Positions 9,521-58,132 of a stretch of 64,000 nt of DNA are shown here, in pieces (within the stretch, counting starts at the first letter, position 1; every line of letters begins with the position of its first letter). The notes under the pieces were generated by a model, which saw nothing but the letters and a program-made list of their open reading frames with translations, ran no database searches and was not told the DNA's origin. The DNA lies in assembly GCF_018918095.1 (NCBI RefSeq), contig NZ_JAHLPV010000001.1, forward strand, positions 124,001-188,000, read 5' to 3'. Both the position numbers and the translations under genes were made by a program. This DNA comes from Acetivibrio sp. MSJd-27 (GTDB taxonomy: Bacteria; Bacillota; Clostridia; UMGS1840; HGM11507).

Positions 9521-10666
9521 TTACCAATGATTCAAAACATCAGACAAAGGAATTCCATTTTGCTGTGCCAAAGATTTTGCCGACTCGTATTCCGGATAGC
9601 ATTTTTCTATCCCCTCATAGGATACCCGTTTGATTGTTAACGCGCCCCATTTGGTCAAGACGGTTTCAAATGTTCTGTCCATTTTTGTACGGCTCACAGC
9701 GTTCTCCCGAATGCCTATGCTGGTGGTCTCCGAAAAGATAATCTTCTTCAACTTTTCTTTGCAGCTGGAATCACAGATTACCGTGAGCAGATAAGCCGGA
9801 CGGTTCTTCTTCATATAGACGGGCGTATAGAAAACATCCCTTGCCCCGCCATTCATCAGCTTCTCCATTGTATACCCAAGTGCTTCGCCGGAGCAGTCGT
9901 CAATATTGGTTTCCAATTTCACGATTTTTTCTTCCGCCGTCCCATTGCTTTCCGCAAGCATAACCCGCAGAATATTTGGCCGTTTGAATTCTCTTTCACC
10001 GCATCCATAGCCGGTTTTTAAAACAGAGCCGCACAGATTTTCCCCGAACGACTCCGCCGCCTCGCAGATAATTGCCGCACCGGTCGGTGTGACCATCTCT
10101 CCCTGCTCGTCTGTCAGTTGCAGAAGAGCTCCCCGCCTTTTCACAATTTCCATTGTAGCAGGAACCGGAACCGGAATCCTTCCATGGCGGCAGTCCACAA
10201 ATCCCCTGCCGTCACACAAAATAGAACTCACAATTTTGTCAGGACGGACAGCGTCGAGCAAAACAGCCGCTCCGATAATGTCCACAATGGAATCCACAGC
10301 TCCCACCTCGTGAAAATGCACCTCATCCACCGGTTTATTGTGTACGCTTGCTTCCGCTTCCGCTACCCGGCGGAAAATATTTTTTGACATTTGCTTGATC
10401 GGTTCGGAAAAAGCGCTGCTGTCTATCAGCTCACAAATCATTTGAAAATTTCTGTGCGGCTGTTTTTCGTCCGATATCACTTTCACCGTTTTTCCGTGTA
10501 TTCCGGACTTTTCCGCTCCGCCGATTTGAAGCCGGAAAGGCACCGTGGTCTTCAGCTTTTCCATTTCCCAAACCAGATATTGCGCGTCTCCAATCAAATC
10601 GGTTAGAGCTCCCAGCACCATATCGCCGCTGATGCCGGAAAAGCAATCAAAATAGAGTATCTTCAT
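9521..10666 (-). CDS. larC: LarC, nickel insertion protein for the nickel-pincer nucleotide cofactor
   Basis: A 381-residue protein of the LarC family, the CTP-dependent cyclometallase that puts nickel into the pincer nucleotide used by lactate racemase and related epimerases. The N-terminal motif YFDCFSGISGDMVLGAL (residues 4-20) and the metal-rich region VDEVHFHEVGAVDSIVDI (about 115) are characteristic, as is KLETNIDDCSGEALGY at the start of the C-terminal domain (about 255). The gene is one uninterrupted frame. Some relatives split it into larC1/larC2 by frameshift, which is not the case here. The start at 10666 has AAAGGAA upstream and begins MKILYFD. It lies 50 bases behind larB; larA and larE are not in the window. 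Confidence 0.93.
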   Translation of the reverse strand: MKILYFDCFSGISGDMVLGALTDLIGDAQYLVWEMEKLKTTVPFRLQIGGAEKSGIHGKTVKVISDEKQPHRNFQMICELIDSSAFSEPIKQMSKNIFRRVAEAEASVHNKPVDEVHFHEVGAVDSIVDIIGAAVLLDAVRPDKIVSSILCDGRGFVDCRHGRIPVPVPATMEIVKRRGALLQLTDEQGEMVTPTGAAIICEAAESFGENLCGSVLKTGYGCGEREFKRPNILRVMLAESNGTAEEKIVKLETNIDDCSGEALGYTMEKLMNGGARDVFYTPVYMKKNRPAYLLTVICDSSCKEKLKKIIFSETTSIGIRENAVSRTKMDRTFETVLTKWGALTIKRVSYEGIEKCYPEYESAKSLAQQNGIPLSDVLNHW

Positions 10667-40663: not shown

Positions 40664-43153
40664 TCATCTTCCGATCACTACGACTCGGACCCTTCCGCCG
40701 TTTTTTTCCGCCTTATCGTAATAGGCATAAATAGATTTTCCAGTGACCTGAACCGCTTCGCTCAGCGGCAGCACCATATACTTCAAATAACTATCAACCT
40801 GATATACCACCACGTCGGAAGCCAGCTTCAGCCGCTCGCCGTCTAAGGTTTCCAGATAGGTTTCCGTCAGTTTGCCGATCGTTCCCTTAACGCCGGAAAG
40901 ATTGGTCATACTCTCCACCCTGCCGCCGCTTAACACAAACTTTGCCGCCTGGCCGGAGCGGATAGAGTAAGCCATATTGGAGGTGTTCAGCGTGGTGGAG
41001 GTTCCGCCGATATCATACGTATAGCTCCCGCTGACCGAATTTCCGGACAGATTGCTTTTGGCATAGGTAATCATGCCATACTCATACATATCGCCGGTAA
41101 CATCCTTCAGAATCATGGACACAATTCTCCCTTGGGCGTCCCTCTCAGCATACAGCACGGAGGAAGAACTTAACTGTACCCCGTCCAGTCTCTGCGGAAA
41201 CACAGTGACATAAGCGGAAACGGCGGAACTGTCCGTGGTGCTGACATCCAGAATACTGACATTACCGGCCAGGGTAAAATTTCCGATTTTCATCCCGTCC
41301 GCATCCACCGTGCCGGAAACCGACGCGGAATCCTCCAGCTTGCTCACGGCTGCTGTTCCGTTCTCATAGACCGCTTTCACCACACTGTTCTTATAGCTGG
41401 AATAATCGGTTTTGGTCACCAGCTCATAGGCGGAACCGTCCGGTGCCACCAGACTGATATAATTGGAGGAATAGGTCTCCCCGTTGGTGTTGGTGAAGCT
41501 CTTCTTCCCGCTGGCCGTCATATAGCCGTAAATATCCTTGTCCAGAACGGAGGGGGAGACGACATCCGCGATTTGTCCGGTTTTTCCGATCAGAAGCGTG
41601 ACCGTGTCGCCATATTTAAAGCTTCCGTTGGAGGAAAGGGCGTTAAATGCAGATACCCCTTCCAGCTCATAGGTCACGCCCGAGACAACCACACTGGTGG
41701 GCAGATCCTTGTTGGGGGTTGCCTTCTCATAGATGCCGGTAATCTTTTTGGAGTATGCCAGAACCATATTTAAATCTTTGGCATAGTAAGCAATGTCATA
41801 GGGCTGAATCTCGCTTAAAGAGGATTTTTCCCCGTCCCGGGTGACGGCCGGCGAGGAAGCGCGGAAGGAATCCGCCCAGTTATCCCCTCTCACCGTGACA
41901 GGGCCCTGCACATTGCCGTCCTCGATGCTGACATATTCAATTTCGCCGTTTAAATCTCTTCGCACATAAATGATATCTCCCAGCGAGAGGGAGGATTTCA
42001 GTGCGCCGAAAGTCGATTTCTGATTCTCCTTGTAGGCGGTGTCGCTGTCCAGGATATTCAGTTCACTCATGGTGCCGTTCTTGTATGTGATCACGGTATT
42101 GTCCAATCTGGAATAAACAATGTATTGCTCCAGACGGTTCACATCGATTTCGGTGCTTCCGCTCCCGCCTGCATAGAGAAAAGCGTATTCCACCGTTCCG
42201 GCAGAATTGGCATAGGTTTTCAGCGTATAACCGCTCTTGGCGCTGGCGACCAGATCCTTGTAAGTCGCCTTCTGAGATTTATAGTAGGTGGTCAGGTTCT
42301 CGTCAATGTTCAATATTTTGCCGTCCAGTACCATATCGGAACCGATGGTTCCCGTGACGCTATAGCTTTGCACATTCTGGGAATAGGGACTGAAATAGAG
42401 GAGATCCTCCTTGTTTTTCAAGACGATATCCCCCTTCTCGCCCACATGAGAGGTATCGAAATTTGCGTCAATGTCATAGGTCCCGCTGGAGGTGTAGATC
42501 TTTCCGCCATTGATGGAGGGATCCTGCCAGGTTGTTGCAATCAGAGTGACATTCTCAATGATTTCGCAGTCGAAAACCGAAATATATTTTTCAGAACTGC
42601 CCTTTTTCTTCGTGTTCAAGAGATTGTATACCAGGTTCATCACATCGCTTCGGGTGAGCACATCACCGATATTCTTGCCCACGCCCTGCGTCAGCTTCAG
42701 GTTGTTGGCAAGCCCAACCTGTCCGTAAGGCCAGGAGGATCCGAAATCATCATTGGTATAGCCCAAAAGCTTTAGGAATATGGTGACCGCTTCCTCATAA
42801 GTCACATTGTTTTCCGGACGGAAGGTGGAATCCTCATAGCCGTTCACCAGCTTGTTGGACACCGCCAGTTGAATATAGGGCGCCGCCCAATGGCTGTAAG
42901 AGACATCGTAAAAGGGGGAAACCGTCATGCCCGCCGCTACCGCGTTCCGGTAATCCGACGCGGCAATGGCGATTTTCGTGAACTCCGCCCTTGTCACATT
43001 GTCATACAGACGAAAATTCCCGTCCGGATCTCCCTTCATGATATCCAGCGCGGATACCAGCCAGGTCAAATCGCTTGGTTCCTCTGCCGCCGCGGGCAGA
43101 CAGCCCGCTGTCATCAGCAGAATCAAAAGAAGACTGATTATTTTTTTTCTCAT
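40664..43153 (-). CDS. SLH-domain surface protein, last gene of the export operon
   Basis: An 829-residue exported protein. The signal peptide ends near residue 23 (MTAGCLPAAAEE; the Cys could also be a weak lipobox). SLH repeats follow (about 30-180; WLVSALDIMKGDPDGNFRLY, YSHWAAPYIQLAVSNKLVNG, LANNLKLTQGVGKNIGD). The remainder is beta-rich with repeated threonine/tyrosine motifs and no catalytic signature. It resembles the 1031-residue SLH protein at 21975-25070. It starts 11 bases behind the permease gene, so it is cotranscribed with a MacA/MacB-like exporter. A role as its wall-anchored partner or cargo is inference. Confidence 0.85.
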   Translation of the reverse strand: MRKKIISLLLILLMTAGCLPAAAEEPSDLTWLVSALDIMKGDPDGNFRLYDNVTRAEFTKIAIAASDYRNAVAAGMTVSPFYDVSYSHWAAPYIQLAVSNKLVNGYEDSTFRPENNVTYEEAVTIFLKLLGYTNDDFGSSWPYGQVGLANNLKLTQGVGKNIGDVLTRSDVMNLVYNLLNTKKKGSSEKYISVFDCEIIENVTLIATTWQDPSINGGKIYTSSGTYDIDANFDTSHVGEKGDIVLKNKEDLLYFSPYSQNVQSYSVTGTIGSDMVLDGKILNIDENLTTYYKSQKATYKDLVASAKSGYTLKTYANSAGTVEYAFLYAGGSGSTEIDVNRLEQYIVYSRLDNTVITYKNGTMSELNILDSDTAYKENQKSTFGALKSSLSLGDIIYVRRDLNGEIEYVSIEDGNVQGPVTVRGDNWADSFRASSPAVTRDGEKSSLSEIQPYDIAYYAKDLNMVLAYSKKITGIYEKATPNKDLPTSVVVSGVTYELEGVSAFNALSSNGSFKYGDTVTLLIGKTGQIADVVSPSVLDKDIYGYMTASGKKSFTNTNGETYSSNYISLVAPDGSAYELVTKTDYSSYKNSVVKAVYENGTAAVSKLEDSASVSGTVDADGMKIGNFTLAGNVSILDVSTTDSSAVSAYVTVFPQRLDGVQLSSSSVLYAERDAQGRIVSMILKDVTGDMYEYGMITYAKSNLSGNSVSGSYTYDIGGTSTTLNTSNMAYSIRSGQAAKFVLSGGRVESMTNLSGVKGTIGKLTETYLETLDGERLKLASDVVVYQVDSYLKYMVLPLSEAVQVTGKSIYAYYDKAEKNGGRVRVVVIGR

Positions 43154-43164
43154 GCAAACTCCTC

Positions 43165-44343
43165 CTAGTCATACCGCAAAGCTTCAATCGGATTGAGCCG
43201 GGAAGCTTTCTTGGCGGGAAAATATCCAAAGGTGACTCCAATCACCACCGAAACGGAAAAGGCAATGAAAATTGCCGTCATGGAAATCAATACGCTCAAA
43301 TCAAAGAACGTGGTTGCATACGAGGCGGCGATTCCCAAAAGGATGCCGAGAATGCCGCCTATGGCGCTGGTGGTGATCGCCTCCACCACAAACTGGCTCA
43401 TAATATCCCAGGGCTGGGCGCCAAGGGATTTTCGGATACCGATCTCCCTCGTCCGCTCCGTCACCGAAACCAGCATAATATTCATGATGCCGATACCGCC
43501 GACCAGCAGAGAGATACCGGCAACGCCGACCAGCACCATGGTCATCATGCCTGTCATCTCGTTTACCTGCTCCAGGGCTTCCGCCTGATTATAGACGCTG
43601 TATGCGTTGGAGCTGGAATAAACGCTCAAAAGGAAATTGTCGATCACATCCATGGCCTGATCCACCGTGTCCTTGCTGGCCGCGCTGAAATTATAGCTGC
43701 TGACCATAAACATCCGCGCCAGCTTTTGCGCAACGGTATAAGGAATCAAGACCGTATCGTCGGAGGAACCCTCCGTTCCGTTCTGCTTTTCTTCCAGCAC
43801 GCCGACCACTTTGAAGCTGTAACCGTTGATTTTCAAGGTCTGCTCCAGAGGATTCTCCCCCTCGAACAGAGTGTTCGCCAGATACGTGCCAATGACGCAG
43901 TTGTTCTGTTTGGTTTCCACATCCATGTAGGTGAGAAAGCGCCCTGCCTGCACATTGGAATTTTTGACATCCTTATAACATTCATTGACGCCGGTACAGG
44001 TGGTGGAATCCAGATTGGTATCGCCGTTTTTGATTATGACACCCGCCACTGATATCATCGGGCTCATCGCTCCGATCACATCCGGATTGTCATCCACCAG
44101 CTGCTGCATCTGATCCGCAGTCACCGTGCGGTTTCCTCCCCTGCCACGGATGGAGACGGAAATCAGGTTCGTCCCCATGCTCTCGAAGGTGGAAACCATC
44201 TCGTCGCTCATCCCCTGCACAATGCTGACCAATACAATCACCGAAGCCACGCCGATGATGATGCCGAGCATGGTCAGAAAGGAACGCATCTTGCTGCCCA
44301 TCAGGCTTTTCAGTGCAAGAGTAAACGCCTGCTTAATATTCAT
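43165..44343 (-). CDS. MacB-like ABC transporter permease (FtsX domain)
   Basis: A 392-residue permease with the type VII ABC layout: a first helix (about 18-40, SFLTMLGIIIGVASVIVLVS), a large extracellular MacB core domain (about 45-265), and three C-terminal helices (about 270-385) with the FtsX motif GGIGIMNIMLVSVTERTREIG and IRKSLGA. It works with the ATPase whose gene overlaps it by 11 bases and with the HlyD-like protein. Such transporters use mechanotransmission to expel peptides, lipids or antibiotics; the substrate here is unknown. Confidence 0.92.
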   Translation of the reverse strand: MNIKQAFTLALKSLMGSKMRSFLTMLGIIIGVASVIVLVSIVQGMSDEMVSTFESMGTNLISVSIRGRGGNRTVTADQMQQLVDDNPDVIGAMSPMISVAGVIIKNGDTNLDSTTCTGVNECYKDVKNSNVQAGRFLTYMDVETKQNNCVIGTYLANTLFEGENPLEQTLKINGYSFKVVGVLEEKQNGTEGSSDDTVLIPYTVAQKLARMFMVSSYNFSAASKDTVDQAMDVIDNFLLSVYSSSNAYSVYNQAEALEQVNEMTGMMTMVLVGVAGISLLVGGIGIMNIMLVSVTERTREIGIRKSLGAQPWDIMSQFVVEAITTSAIGGILGILLGIAASYATTFFDLSVLISMTAIFIAFSVSVVIGVTFGYFPAKKASRLNPIEALRYD

Positions 44344-53429: not shown

Positions 53430-54167
53430 TTATTGCGCTGGGTATAAGAATTTCATCGTTTTATCTTTCAAATCAAATTTACAAATATATGGAGTACCAC
53501 CGATATAAAGGGTATCATTCTTTACTGCACAAGTAAAAGGGGTATACCCATCCCAAGAATTTTCATACCAAATACCTTTCCATAAAACCTCAGGCTCTCC
53601 TTTTATATCTTTGTAATACAGAATCCTTTTATTTGTAATAACGATGAGCCCGCCCTTGTAAAAGCAAGTGCCATATGTTTTGCTGTCTTCTAACTGATTG
53701 ATTTCCACCATCTCATCCTCGCCTCCATATCCATATATTTTGGGAGAATAATGATCTGCATTCTCAACCAAGTCGCCGATTACATATAGCATACTCTCTA
53801 TGAAGAAAGCCTCTTTTATGATGTGATTTTCCTGCACATCATACAAATATCTTCCTGATATTCGTTCTCCGACACTTGGGTGTCTCACATAATATTTTTT
53901 CGCTCCTGTGCTGGATTTATAAAAAGCTAATTCTAAATAATGCTCAGATCTTTTGGTTAAAAATACATGATATCCGTCTCCTGTGACTTCCCAGAATTCA
54001 TTCTTTTTCAGCGGTTGAATCTCGCTCATTTTAAATTTCTTTATATTCACAGGCTCTTGATCTACAATTTTGTTATTATGAAAAAAATAAAAATAACAGA
54101 AAGCAAAAAGAAGAACGATAATAAAAATGATTGTAAACCATATTATCTTTAAAATAAATTTTTTCAT
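53430..54167 (-). CDS. Membrane-anchored protein of unknown function in the RHS island
   Basis: A 245-residue protein with one long N-terminal hydrophobic helix (about 8-30, rich in Ile and Phe) and an external, beta-rich remainder. Short strand repeats such as YLYDVQENHIIKEAFFIESM, CFYKGGLIVITNKRILYYKD and VKNDTLYIGGTPYICKFDLK suggest a beta-propeller-like fold. No family is recognised. The gene is AT-rich compared with its neighbours upstream and lies behind the decayed RHS locus, which suggests transfer. An immunity or accessory role to the RHS tip is possible but not shown. Confidence 0.65.
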   Translation of the reverse strand: MKKFILKIIWFTIIFIIVLLFAFCYFYFFHNNKIVDQEPVNIKKFKMSEIQPLKKNEFWEVTGDGYHVFLTKRSEHYLELAFYKSSTGAKKYYVRHPSVGERISGRYLYDVQENHIIKEAFFIESMLYVIGDLVENADHYSPKIYGYGGEDEMVEINQLEDSKTYGTCFYKGGLIVITNKRILYYKDIKGEPEVLWKGIWYENSWDGYTPFTCAVKNDTLYIGGTPYICKFDLKDKTMKFLYPAQ

Positions 54168-54448: not shown

Positions 54449-55159
54449 TTAATTTTTGTAATTCGGAAATTTTCCATATGGATTTTCTTCTATAATTTCA
54501 CCCACATACTGATCAATATACCGTTTTGTTAAAACCCCACCATATTGATAGGATTGAAACGGTGTGTGTAAAATATCATATACTAAATAAAGAAAATCTC
54601 CTGTTTCAATATATTGGTTTTCTTGCTCGTGTTTTAATTGGAATTCATTACTTATTGATGGAATTAATCCCCATCCATCAAAAGACGAGAACCAGTCATC
54701 CCCCTTTGAAGATAAAAACAGATTTCCCATTTCAAACATTCTTAATAAAATAGTAATACTTTCTTTATAGGTTATGTATGAATCTAAATCAGCTACCAAA
54801 TTCCCATTTGTATCACATCTTCCTTTTAATATACCGTTCATATGTGTAGTAGCAACTAATTTACTATCGTTTGTACCTAAATCTACATCTATGAATTCGA
54901 TTTTTTCTTGTTTAAAATAAGATTCACTGTCAATCTCCATTATACCATTTATTTGAATAGCACTAATTAAATACAAAGCATTTCTTCTAGATACATAATT
55001 TTCTTTGCTTTCTTCAATAAGTTCGTCAATCAATTTACAATTTATTAAGACATTAAAAGCATGATTCTCGTTTATTGGTGATAAATTATTTTGTGAAGCA
55101 AAACCTATATGTATTGTTAATATAAATATAATAAATAAACATATAATATTTTTTTTCAT
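54449..55159 (-). CDS. Exported protein behind the RHS tip, candidate partner or immunity protein
   Basis: A 236-residue protein with a signal peptide (about 1-21, ending HIGFAS). Several segments resemble degenerate SLH repeats (NYVSRRNALYLISAIQ; DLDSYITYKESITILLRMFE), but the SLH motifs are incomplete. GGAGG is five bases ahead of the ATG at 55159. It begins 44 bases behind the RHS tip and is AT-rich like it. Genes in this position in polymorphic toxin loci often encode the cognate immunity protein, so that is a plausible but unproven role; a wall-associated function from the SLH-like segments is the alternative. Confidence 0.6.
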   Translation of the reverse strand: MKKNIICLFIIFILTIHIGFASQNNLSPINENHAFNVLINCKLIDELIEESKENYVSRRNALYLISAIQINGIMEIDSESYFKQEKIEFIDVDLGTNDSKLVATTHMNGILKGRCDTNGNLVADLDSYITYKESITILLRMFEMGNLFLSSKGDDWFSSFDGWGLIPSISNEFQLKHEQENQYIETGDFLYLVYDILHTPFQSYQYGGVLTKRYIDQYVGEIIEENPYGKFPNYKN

Positions 55160-55203
55160 CACGACCTCCATTTATTGCGTATAATTTTCAAGGATATGTC
55201 TAA

Positions 55204-56501
55204 CTATATCCGGGCCATAGGCTCTAAGAACAGCGGCATGTACTTTTCCTTTAAAATAATTGTACGTTTTTCTTTGTCTGTATTTGTGTAAGTGAAGCAT
55301 TCTTTATCTGACGTAGGAAGTTGAAATGGAAATTGACCTAAGTCATTAACACCTATATATCCAATACTTTTGTCTTTAGGCTTATATCCCATTTTGATTC
55401 TAACATACTCCTCCATAATAATGGCAGTAGCTTCTTTAAGTTTTCTTCTTACAGCCATATCAATAGCTCCCGCATCTTCTGTTCCAACTCCACTTTCAAT
55501 ATTTATAATTAATCGATCATCTATCCCTGTCATTTCAGTAAATGCGTGTAAAAATTCATGGAACAATGTGGTAGTAGTATCTTCAGTATCAGCAATTTCT
55601 CCTAATGTTAATGTACCATTGTTATAATTTGATTTTAGCCACGTTGAATTTGTGTCGACCAATACCATTATATAAATAGTCTTGTCATTAGTCACAATTT
55701 CTTTCATTACAGCTCTAGCTAACGCTGAACCACCATTTATTTCACCGTCTTCTTTCCAAACTATGTTATTGCCTTCTATTTCATAACCACTATATCCGGT
55801 CATTTTTATAATTTGATTCCGCAAGAACTTCAAATATGCTTCACGTTTCCTCTTATTAGACTCAGAAATTTCAATTTTCAAACCACTTGGATCCACTAAA
55901 TTAATTGGATTATTCGCACAATAAACAAACCAATTCAGCCCATTCTTTTCCGGCTCCTCCGACGTGAACCTCCCGATAGAACTGTCATAATACCTCGCTC
56001 TGAGGTAGATGAATCCGATTTCATTGTCGAAATATTCTCCTCAGTAACGGAACGGATTATTGTCTTCTGCCTGTTTCTGTTTCTGGTTCCCGAATGCATG
56101 GTAGGTATAATCTTTCAGGACAGTGCCGTTGCGTTGACCAGGACGGTGGTATCTCCATGCGTATTGAAGGAATAATATTCTTTGCTTCCTCCGTTCACGG
56201 TTCTGGAAATCAGGGAAATCCCTCTGTGGAAGACCTGCTTTTCGCCGTCCTTGTCATCCATGACAATATTCTGTCCGTCATAGATATGGCTGGTGGTCAA
56301 GCCGTTGGTGGTTTTGCTCTGGCGCAAACCATTGGCATCGTATGTGTAAGTTGTTGTCACATTGTTGACGGTAGATTTCGTCATCCGGTTCAGCGGAGCG
56401 TGTTCAAACAGCTGGATTCCGTTGGGCCCCTCCCCGATGGTGACCGACTGGTTGCCTGTTGCTTCGCCCATGGCCGTGATGGTCTTCGTGGTCTGGTTAC
56501 C
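55204..56501 (-). pseudogene. RHS-repeat protein remnant with metallopeptidase-like C-terminal tip
   Basis: Three pieces of one RHS/YD-repeat protein are visible. The first (56115-56501) reads TTTYTYDANGLRQSKTTNGL and similar repeats. A one-base loss near 56130 shifts the frame into GTVLKDYTYHAFGNQKQKQ, which meets TGA (56041-56043) where relatives have Cys (RYCGEYFD). From there the frame is open to 55204 and contains the RHS core GFIYLRARYYDSSIGRFTSE and NPINLVDPSGLK. After the core comes a variable 225-residue tip with TLFHEFLHAFTE, a zinc-metallopeptidase HExxH motif. The N-terminal part of the protein is missing beyond about 56501. The tip could still be expressed from an internal GTG at 55896, but no clear ribosome binding site supports this. 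Confidence 0.8.
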
Positions 56502-56681
56502 CTATATTTCCAACCACATTATACTCTCATTTCATAATATTGTCAATCTTTCCATTGTTGCTTAGAGCTAGGAACAGAAAACTGCCTTCTGTCTTGGTTA
56601 CCGACATCTACCTTTCCTTGTCATACAGCAATTTTTCAAAGCGAATTTCCTAGTTCTGATTTCCATACCCTATTTTATCAG

Positions 56682-56849
56682 GATTGCAATGAAAATACCA
56701 CAATATATTATAGGGGAATCGATGTGAAAACTTCCCAATATTTACTTGGTCATAAAGATATTTGGATCACATTGAATTTAGATACAACTCTTGAAAGAAA
56801 TAATAGCATAGTAGCTAACAAATTGAATGAATCTTTTGAAAAATATTAG
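56682..56849 (+). pseudogene. Tyrosine recombinase (integrase) C-terminal relic
   Basis: The plus-strand frame reads YYRGIDVKTSQYLLGHKDI then WITLNLDTTLERNNSIVANK to TAG at 56847-56849. GVDVKT.Q.LLGH..I..T.NIY is the C-terminal block of phage-type integrases, with the box III His in LGH. The catalytic Tyr position is Asp here (TLNLD for TLNIY), and the upstream Arg-containing boxes are absent, so it cannot be active. Confidence 0.7.
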
Positions 56850-56929: not shown

Positions 56930-58132
56930 TTATTCGATGATAGAAGAAACAACGCCGGAACCTACGGTTCTTCCGCCTTCACGGATAGCGAAACGCAGAC
57001 CCTCTTCGATAGCGATGTGGCTGATCAGTTCAACAGACATGGTAACGTTATCGCCAGGCATGCACATTTCAGTGCCTTCCGGCAGAGTGATGATGCCGGT
57101 AACGTCAGTTGTTCTGAAATAGAACTGAGGTCTGTACTGGTTCATGAAAGGAGTGTGACGTCCACCCTCTTCTTTGGTCAGAACGTAAACTTCTGCGTTG
57201 AATTTTTTGTGAGGATGAATGGTGCCGGGTTTTGCTAAAACCTGACCTCTTTCGATTTCATCTCTCTGAACGCCTCTCAGCAGTACGCCGATGTTGTCGC
57301 CTGCTTCTGCATAGTCCAGAAGTTTCCGGAACATTTCGATACCGGTAACAACAACTTTTCTGGATTCTTCTACCAGACCAACGATTTCAACTTCGTCGGA
57401 CATTTTCAGAACGCCTCTTTCTACTCTACCGGTAGCAACTGTACCACGACCGGTGATGGAGAATACGTCCTCAACAGGCATCAGGAAAGGCAGGTCTGCT
57501 TTTCTTTCAGGAGTCGGGATATATTCGTCAACAGCGTCCATCAATTTGTGGATGCATTCGTATTCCGGAGCGTTCGGGTCGGTGGAAGTAGATTCTAGAG
57601 CAACCAGAGCGGAACCAACGATAATCGGAGTATCGTCTCCCGGGAAATCATATTCATTCAACAGTTCTCTGATTTCCATTTCAACGAGTTCCAGCAATTC
57701 CGGATCGTCAACCTGGTCAGCTTTGTTCATGAATACAACGATATAAGGAACACCAACCTGTCTGGACAGGAGGATATGTTCTCTTGTCTGAGGCATCGGG
57801 CCGTCAGCAGCAGAAACAACCAGAATTGCTCCGTCCATCTGTGCAGCACCGGTGATCATGTTTTTAACATAGTCAGCATGTCCTGGGCAGTCAACGTGAG
57901 CGTAGTGACGTTTGTCTGTCTCATACTCAACGTGAGCAGTAGAGATGGTGATACCTCTTTCTCTTTCTTCCGGAGCTTTGTCGATCATGTCATATGCTTC
58001 GTACTGTGCTTTCCCGTCCATAGCCAGGACTTTGGTAATTGCAGCGGTCAAAGAAGTTTTACCATGGTCAACATGGCCGATTGTACCAATGTTAACGTGA
58101 GGCTTATTTCTTTCAAATTTAGCTTTTGCCAT
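56930..58132 (-). CDS. tuf: Elongation factor Tu
   Basis: A 400-residue GTPase that brings aminoacyl-tRNA to the ribosome. [14 protein letters not shown] (P-loop, about 19-32), [14 protein letters not shown] (switch I), [12 protein letters not shown] (about 81), NKADQVDD (about 136) and SAL are intact; domains 2 and 3 are of normal length. GGGAGG precedes the ATG. It is the last gene of the str operon, 88 bases behind fusA. Confidence 0.99.

Follow-up and report, generated by a model that had tools for sequence, protein, structure and literature searches.

The stretch of Acetivibrio sp. MSJd-27 DNA analysed here (64,000 nucleotides, referred to as the window) quite probably contains an orphan rhs-CT/immunity module derived from a Sec-exported RHS weapon, in which a putative envelope-directed zinc-protease tip is paired with an exported SLH-like protein of probable immunity function. 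By its anatomy the module is an ordinary orphan, while the libraries used did not yet contain the tip family or its exported SLH-like partner. Relatives have the same tip at the end of complete RHS weapons, and the tip, which looks like a zinc protease, would therefore represent a new family of toxins within a well-known kind, not a system of a new kind. The coordinates of the features are collected in Table 1.

Table 1. Features of the orphan module in the window, and related loci in this and other genomes.
Feature	Position or locus	Strand	Basis or remark
Probable immunity gene, signal peptide + SLH-like protein, 236 aa	54449..55159	-	Family HMM, linkage
Orphan RHS C-terminal tip, 225 aa, zincin-like (HExxH...E)	55204..55881	-	Open frame, single copy in own genome
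Glu150, candidate third zinc ligand (KEATAI)	55432..55434	-	Invariant EA in relatives
HEFLH motif, tip residues 108-112	55546..55560	-	HExxH kept in relatives covering the site
RHS core remnant, YD repeats to DPSG exit	55885..56502	-	~85% identical to other cores of the genome
In-frame TGA in core	56041..56043	-	Cys codon in five paralogues
One-base loss site	56128..56129	-	Relative to five paralogues
Further RHS piece from an upstream YD repeat, out-of-frame join via internal deletion	56504..56554	-	84% over 50 bp
Perfect sigma-70 consensus, TTGACA-17-TATAAT, candidate	56518..56546	-	Inside decayed YD repeat, points into the module
Tip ending an intact 1957-aa RHS protein	G361 (L011)		
Tip ending an intact 2074-aa RHS protein	G362 (L020)		E 9e-21
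Orphan tip inside other genes	G257, Oscillospiraceae bacterium SIG433 (L010/L021)		
Tip fragments in tandem	Monoglobus pectinilyticus plasmid (L013)		
Tip fragments	G155 (L017, L018)		
Envelope-type RHS tip set	L028, L029-L033 (own genome C56, C75, C74, C73, C11, C1:229000-241000)		

The 3' part of an RHS gene adjoins tuf (56930-58132) on the minus strand. Its similarity to the other RHS cores of the genome, 82-85% for most of them, sets in sharply at 56502 in four and ends at DPSGL, within the core exit NLVDPSGLK (DPSGLK at 55876-55893). Upstream of this onset, the 50-bp piece matches a YD repeat located inside an RHS frame (C73:3248-3297), and an internal deletion at ~56503/56504 fuses the two YD repeats out of frame. 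An earlier note on this DNA had the RHS fragment end at 56501, but similarity runs on and ceases only at ~56554, beside tuf, with no RHS head beyond. The one-base loss and the TGA that had been reported in the RHS body are both present in an alignment of the window core with five RHS paralogues of the same genome, where the base is missing in the window copy only and the TGA faces a cysteine codon in every paralogue. The damage had nevertheless been understated, as the core is also headless, is cut by the internal deletion and contains more stops (a TAG just ahead of GNQ and a TGA in the upstream piece). In addition, the Asp of the first core-exit motif is changed to Glu (EDP to EEP, codon 55954-55956), and the second motif is intact; in P. 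laumondii Rhs1, cleavage takes place after two core-exit motifs and the catalytic Asp resides in the second (PMC8636562). Private codon changes are also highest in the window core among the six copies (nine silent, 12 replacing and one stop), a few of them sitting at the junction. The RHS core is headless and multiply broken, and fixing both named lesions would still leave a headless fragment, because the head is absent and further damage is present. The locus is therefore an orphan rhs-CT module and not a gene needing two corrections.

As had been described, the DPSGLK exit and the 225-residue tip with HEFLH are open: the frame extends over 278 codons from the TGA at 56041-56043 to the tip stop at 55204-55206, with a chance probability of ~3e-11 at this base composition, and HExxH appears in 0.08% of tip shuffles. 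The combination of HExxH with a downstream Glu is the gluzincin arrangement, and from these residues and their conservation we infer that the tip is a zinc metallopeptidase of the gluzincin type. No convincing match to the tip was obtained with Pfam, NCBIfam, PHROGs, PADLOC or PDB profiles, in line with the view that it differs from the common RHS nuclease tips, and the residues after DPSGLK, for which a profile search had been proposed, fall into no Pfam, NCBIfam or PDB family. The Pfam profile Tox-MPTase1-5/Peptidase_M91 gave no match up to E 5 with the tips of the window, L010 and L011. A Pfam match to Lreu_0056_like (E 0.03) and the PDB profile matches were not significant. Two AlphaFold models of the tip were poor (mean pLDDT 47 and 34; two-sequence alignment), and a fold search with the pLDDT-47 model returned no usable match; the order of elements in these poor models (helix, strands, HExxH helix and Glu helix) is compatible with a small zincin, although it is no proof of one.

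Relatives of the tip were sought in 391 genomes of the class and 398 of the phylum. The family is present in five of the class genomes, own genome included, whereas the phylum genomes provided no further relatives beyond chance matches, and neither pattern scans of viral contigs nor phages yielded any. A4 was too diverged for the pattern scan to pick up. Relatives of the tip occur in five genomes or records besides the own genome, and in two of these they sit on intact RHS proteins (L011 and L020), where the tip is the last domain after DPxGL; the earlier note had suggested looking for the same tip on intact RHS proteins, and the tips found there are homologous, not identical, to that of the window. 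Identity of the relatives to the window tip is only 19-31%. All five family members whose sequence reaches the site retain HExxH, and a Glu-Ala pair lies invariably 30-39 residues past the last His in the members with HExxH, being retained in the L017 fragment as well. The tip family is absent from the libraries used and has conserved residues of a catalytic type. The proposal of a zinc-peptidase-type toxin candidate gains from these data, with HExxH and Glu kept in diverged relatives and a conserved exported partner, but not from the poor structure models. Weak matches in a surface protein (L012), an acetate kinase (L015) and a proC-like gene (L016) were considered to be due to chance.

Directly behind the tip lies an immunity-type gene (54449-55159) that had been overlooked before. 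Eight out of eight tips, that of the window included, directly precede the gene of a signal-peptide protein of one family. An HMM derived from six partner genes of other genomes finds the window ORF 54449-55171 at 2.6e-19 as the best of 471 ORFs, its sole other match being a true SLH protein at 40667-43168 of the window. Pfam SLH matches two of seven partner members (best 2e-7), and the window partner protein has no Pfam match. Because of this linkage and co-occurrence, the exported SLH-like partner is the probable cognate immunity protein. None of the papers searched connects SLH domains and immunity proteins with RHS or other polymorphic toxins. Directly behind the partner, 53430-54167 (minus strand) encodes a membrane-anchored 245-aa protein of no known family, possibly another orphan immunity gene.

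The GC content amounts to 48% in the core, 34% in the tip and 27% in the partner gene, compared with 46% in the window, and the drop from 48% to 34% falls at DPSGL. This low GC of tip and partner is the usual foreign composition of a tip cassette. Near the boundary, the tip could start only at GTG 55896 or at a TTG, and no Shine-Dalgarno sequence precedes GTG 55896; the tip would be silent for lack of a start codon preceded by a ribosome-binding site. The partner gene starts at ATG 55159 and has a GGAGG at 55165-55169, five bases ahead. From these signals we infer that the toxin is off here for want of a usable start, while the immunity gene is still translatable. The perfect sigma-70 consensus is the sole match in the window and occurred in none of 100 shuffles; a paralogue has 11 of the 12 promoter positions at the same place (TATGAT). 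As it lies inside a decayed YD repeat and the paralogue reaches 11/12, the site may be either an accident of decay or a real source of partner transcript. YD-repeat DNA may be prone to yield sigma-70-like sites. Between the RHS remnant and tuf, a short frame at 56724-56846 (plus strand) resembles the end of a tyrosine recombinase (YLLGHKDIWITLN); it was also considered as a phage integrase, for which no Pfam match was found.

The lesions of the core, at least four in number, the tip without a start site and the excess of private changes in the window core over the other copies might also be explained by a plain pseudogene, in which tip and partner are dead leftovers without function or selection. 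This reading is rather unlikely, since the 225 codons of the tip and the partner gene are fully open and the conserved residues are kept beside a decayed core, and the partner gene has a strong ribosome-binding site.

The site of action of the tip can be approached through the other RHS tips of the genome (G000; 3.05 Mb, 104 contigs), which has eight RHS core exits. These tips match phage lysozyme (1e-25), SLT (9e-10), a lipase-like domain (2e-3) and Ntox44 (1e-12), and further ones comprise DUF4329/Tox-JAB-2, Ntox44 with a peptidoglycan-binding domain and a second, matrixin-like zincin orphan. The lysozyme, SLT, lipase-like, DUF4329 and Ntox44 plus peptidoglycan-binding tips form an envelope-type set whose partner genes encode only exported or membrane proteins made of surface modules. 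All 16 genes examined behind RHS tips, counting those of relatives and a window gene that lies further downstream, encode an N-terminal hydrophobic segment, as against 13 of 45 window ORFs, where "exported" follows a hydrophobicity rule and not a trained signal-peptide predictor. Several of the genes behind RHS tips encode RCC1, lipocalin, WG, stalk or DUF5050 proteins. Moreover, the RHS heads in this genome and in relatives carry signal peptides. In the 2012 survey of Zhang et al., almost all immunity proteins were found to be cytoplasmic, and those that are secreted were associated with toxins acting on the cell surface (PMC3482391). Because of the exported partners, the envelope-type tip set, the signal-peptide heads and this pattern, it is held with moderate confidence that the zincin tip would act on the envelope of the target. 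The second zincin-like orphan tip, at L028:9244-9663 (matrixin-like, E 0.004), is followed by a WG-repeat/stalk protein at 9679-10566.

In the proposed sequence of events, rearrangement of a Sec-exported (WapA-like) RHS weapon gene would have left the module beside tuf. On an intact RHS protein, the zincin tip would be released at DPxGL and could then attack the envelope of neighbouring cells by cleaving one of its proteins or a wall peptide, while the SLH-like protein, exported to the same compartment, would bind and block it. The module may be retained because it offers protection and holds tips in reserve that could recombine with the other RHS copies. A toxin acting in the target cytoplasm, whose exported partner blocks uptake at the surface, would be in agreement with B. 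subtilis WapA, the tips of which act inside cells. Two-TM immunity proteins have also been proposed as uptake blockers, but such a mode is unlikely here, considering that many tips of this genome are enzymes acting on wall or membrane, that the partners of all of them are exported or membrane proteins, and that nearly all known immunity proteins are cytoplasmic, with the secreted ones linked to toxins acting at the surface (PMC3482391). Some zincins of polymorphic toxins are releasing peptidases (PMC3482391), and the tip might likewise be a processing peptidase, or an inert structural RHS domain, instead of the toxic part. Such a role is very doubtful, as the tip is the last domain after DPxGL in intact carriers, occupies the slot of the lysozyme, SLT and lipase-like tips on near-identical cores, has a foreign GC and in every case has a gene for an exported partner of its own behind it. 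Finally, although several RHS copies of this draft assembly stop at contig edges, it is most improbable that an assembly or sequencing error makes an intact gene appear broken, because the fragment is interior to a 281-kb contig with the head absent and tuf directly next, and because the stop, the frameshift and the out-of-frame junction lie in sequence diverging by 15% or more from the other copies, so that the fragment is no collapsed copy of them.

The window module resembles the orphan rhs-CT/rhsI pairs of Salmonella Typhimurium LT2, whose toxin is activated when the orphan recombines with the main RHS gene (PMC3967940). Both have a displaced partial core, no translation start, an intact tip, a linked immunity gene and the same (here homologous) tip on full-length RHS proteins elsewhere. 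Unlike the Salmonella orphans, the window module is Clostridial, of the Sec type, has an exported partner and, in the assembly, is far removed from all complete RHS genes. The reading as an orphan tip, which had been suggested before, is supported by the headless core, the GC drop at DPSGL, the intact carriers elsewhere and the several ~85% identical cores. Its availability for recombination, also suggested before, is plausible, given ~600 bp of ~85% identical core in the same genome; a recombinant of the orphan with other RHS copies was not seen. Like the Tox-MPTase1-5, HopH1/NleD-type and PVC-type metallopeptidase toxins (PMC3482391), the tip is a zincin-like HExxH domain that forms the C-terminus behind RHS repeats, but, unlike those domains, it is matched at useful E-values by none of the Pfam and NCBIfam models. 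The survey gives no immunity partner for Tox-MPTase1-5 (PMC3482391), whereas the window tip family is always accompanied by an exported SLH-like protein. Gram-positive WapA/RHS proteins such as S. suis WapA (PMC12704120) also combine a signal peptide, interchangeable tips and truncated duplicates with other tips; in contrast to S. suis WapA, no LysM or sortase-linked head was seen here in a brief look, several tips aim at the envelope and the partners are exported. Imm65 and the L,D-peptidase immunity proteins (PMC3482391) are likewise rare secreted, membrane or lipoprotein immunity proteins for surface-acting tips, but the partner described here, compared with Imm65 through the Pfam scan, is SLH-like and paired with a zincin tip.

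Because its catalytic-type residues are conserved and its partner gene is strictly linked, the new tip family lends itself to direct tests of function. A Gram-positive RHS set with an exported partner at every tip examined would show where these toxins act, and the site of action of Sec-exported RHS toxins is the step that such a set would address. More tentatively, there might exist a Clostridial RHS branch aimed at the outside of the target cell, in which interchangeable tips of the peptidase, lysozyme, transglycosylase and lipase types each have an exported immunity protein assembled from surface modules (SLH, WG, RCC1, lipocalin or DUF5050), and of which the zincin/SLH pair would be one conserved member; if so, SLH-type proteins would be immunity proteins sitting in the cell wall.

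Directly upstream of each RHS head lies the gene of a signal-peptide protein of ~320-358 aa (L028:1883-2842, L034:973-2046, L036:1589-2590 and L040:781-1833), possibly a conserved export or anchoring helper. In addition, the Monoglobus plasmid (NZ_OY725742.1, L013:4747-7229) contains a polyimmunity-like arrangement, in which tandem degraded zincin tip ends alternate with SLH-like genes lying behind them, and the same type of array, with degraded zincin tip ends and SLH-like genes, occurs in G155 (L036:10160-18087), where it is duplicated ~7 kb apart.
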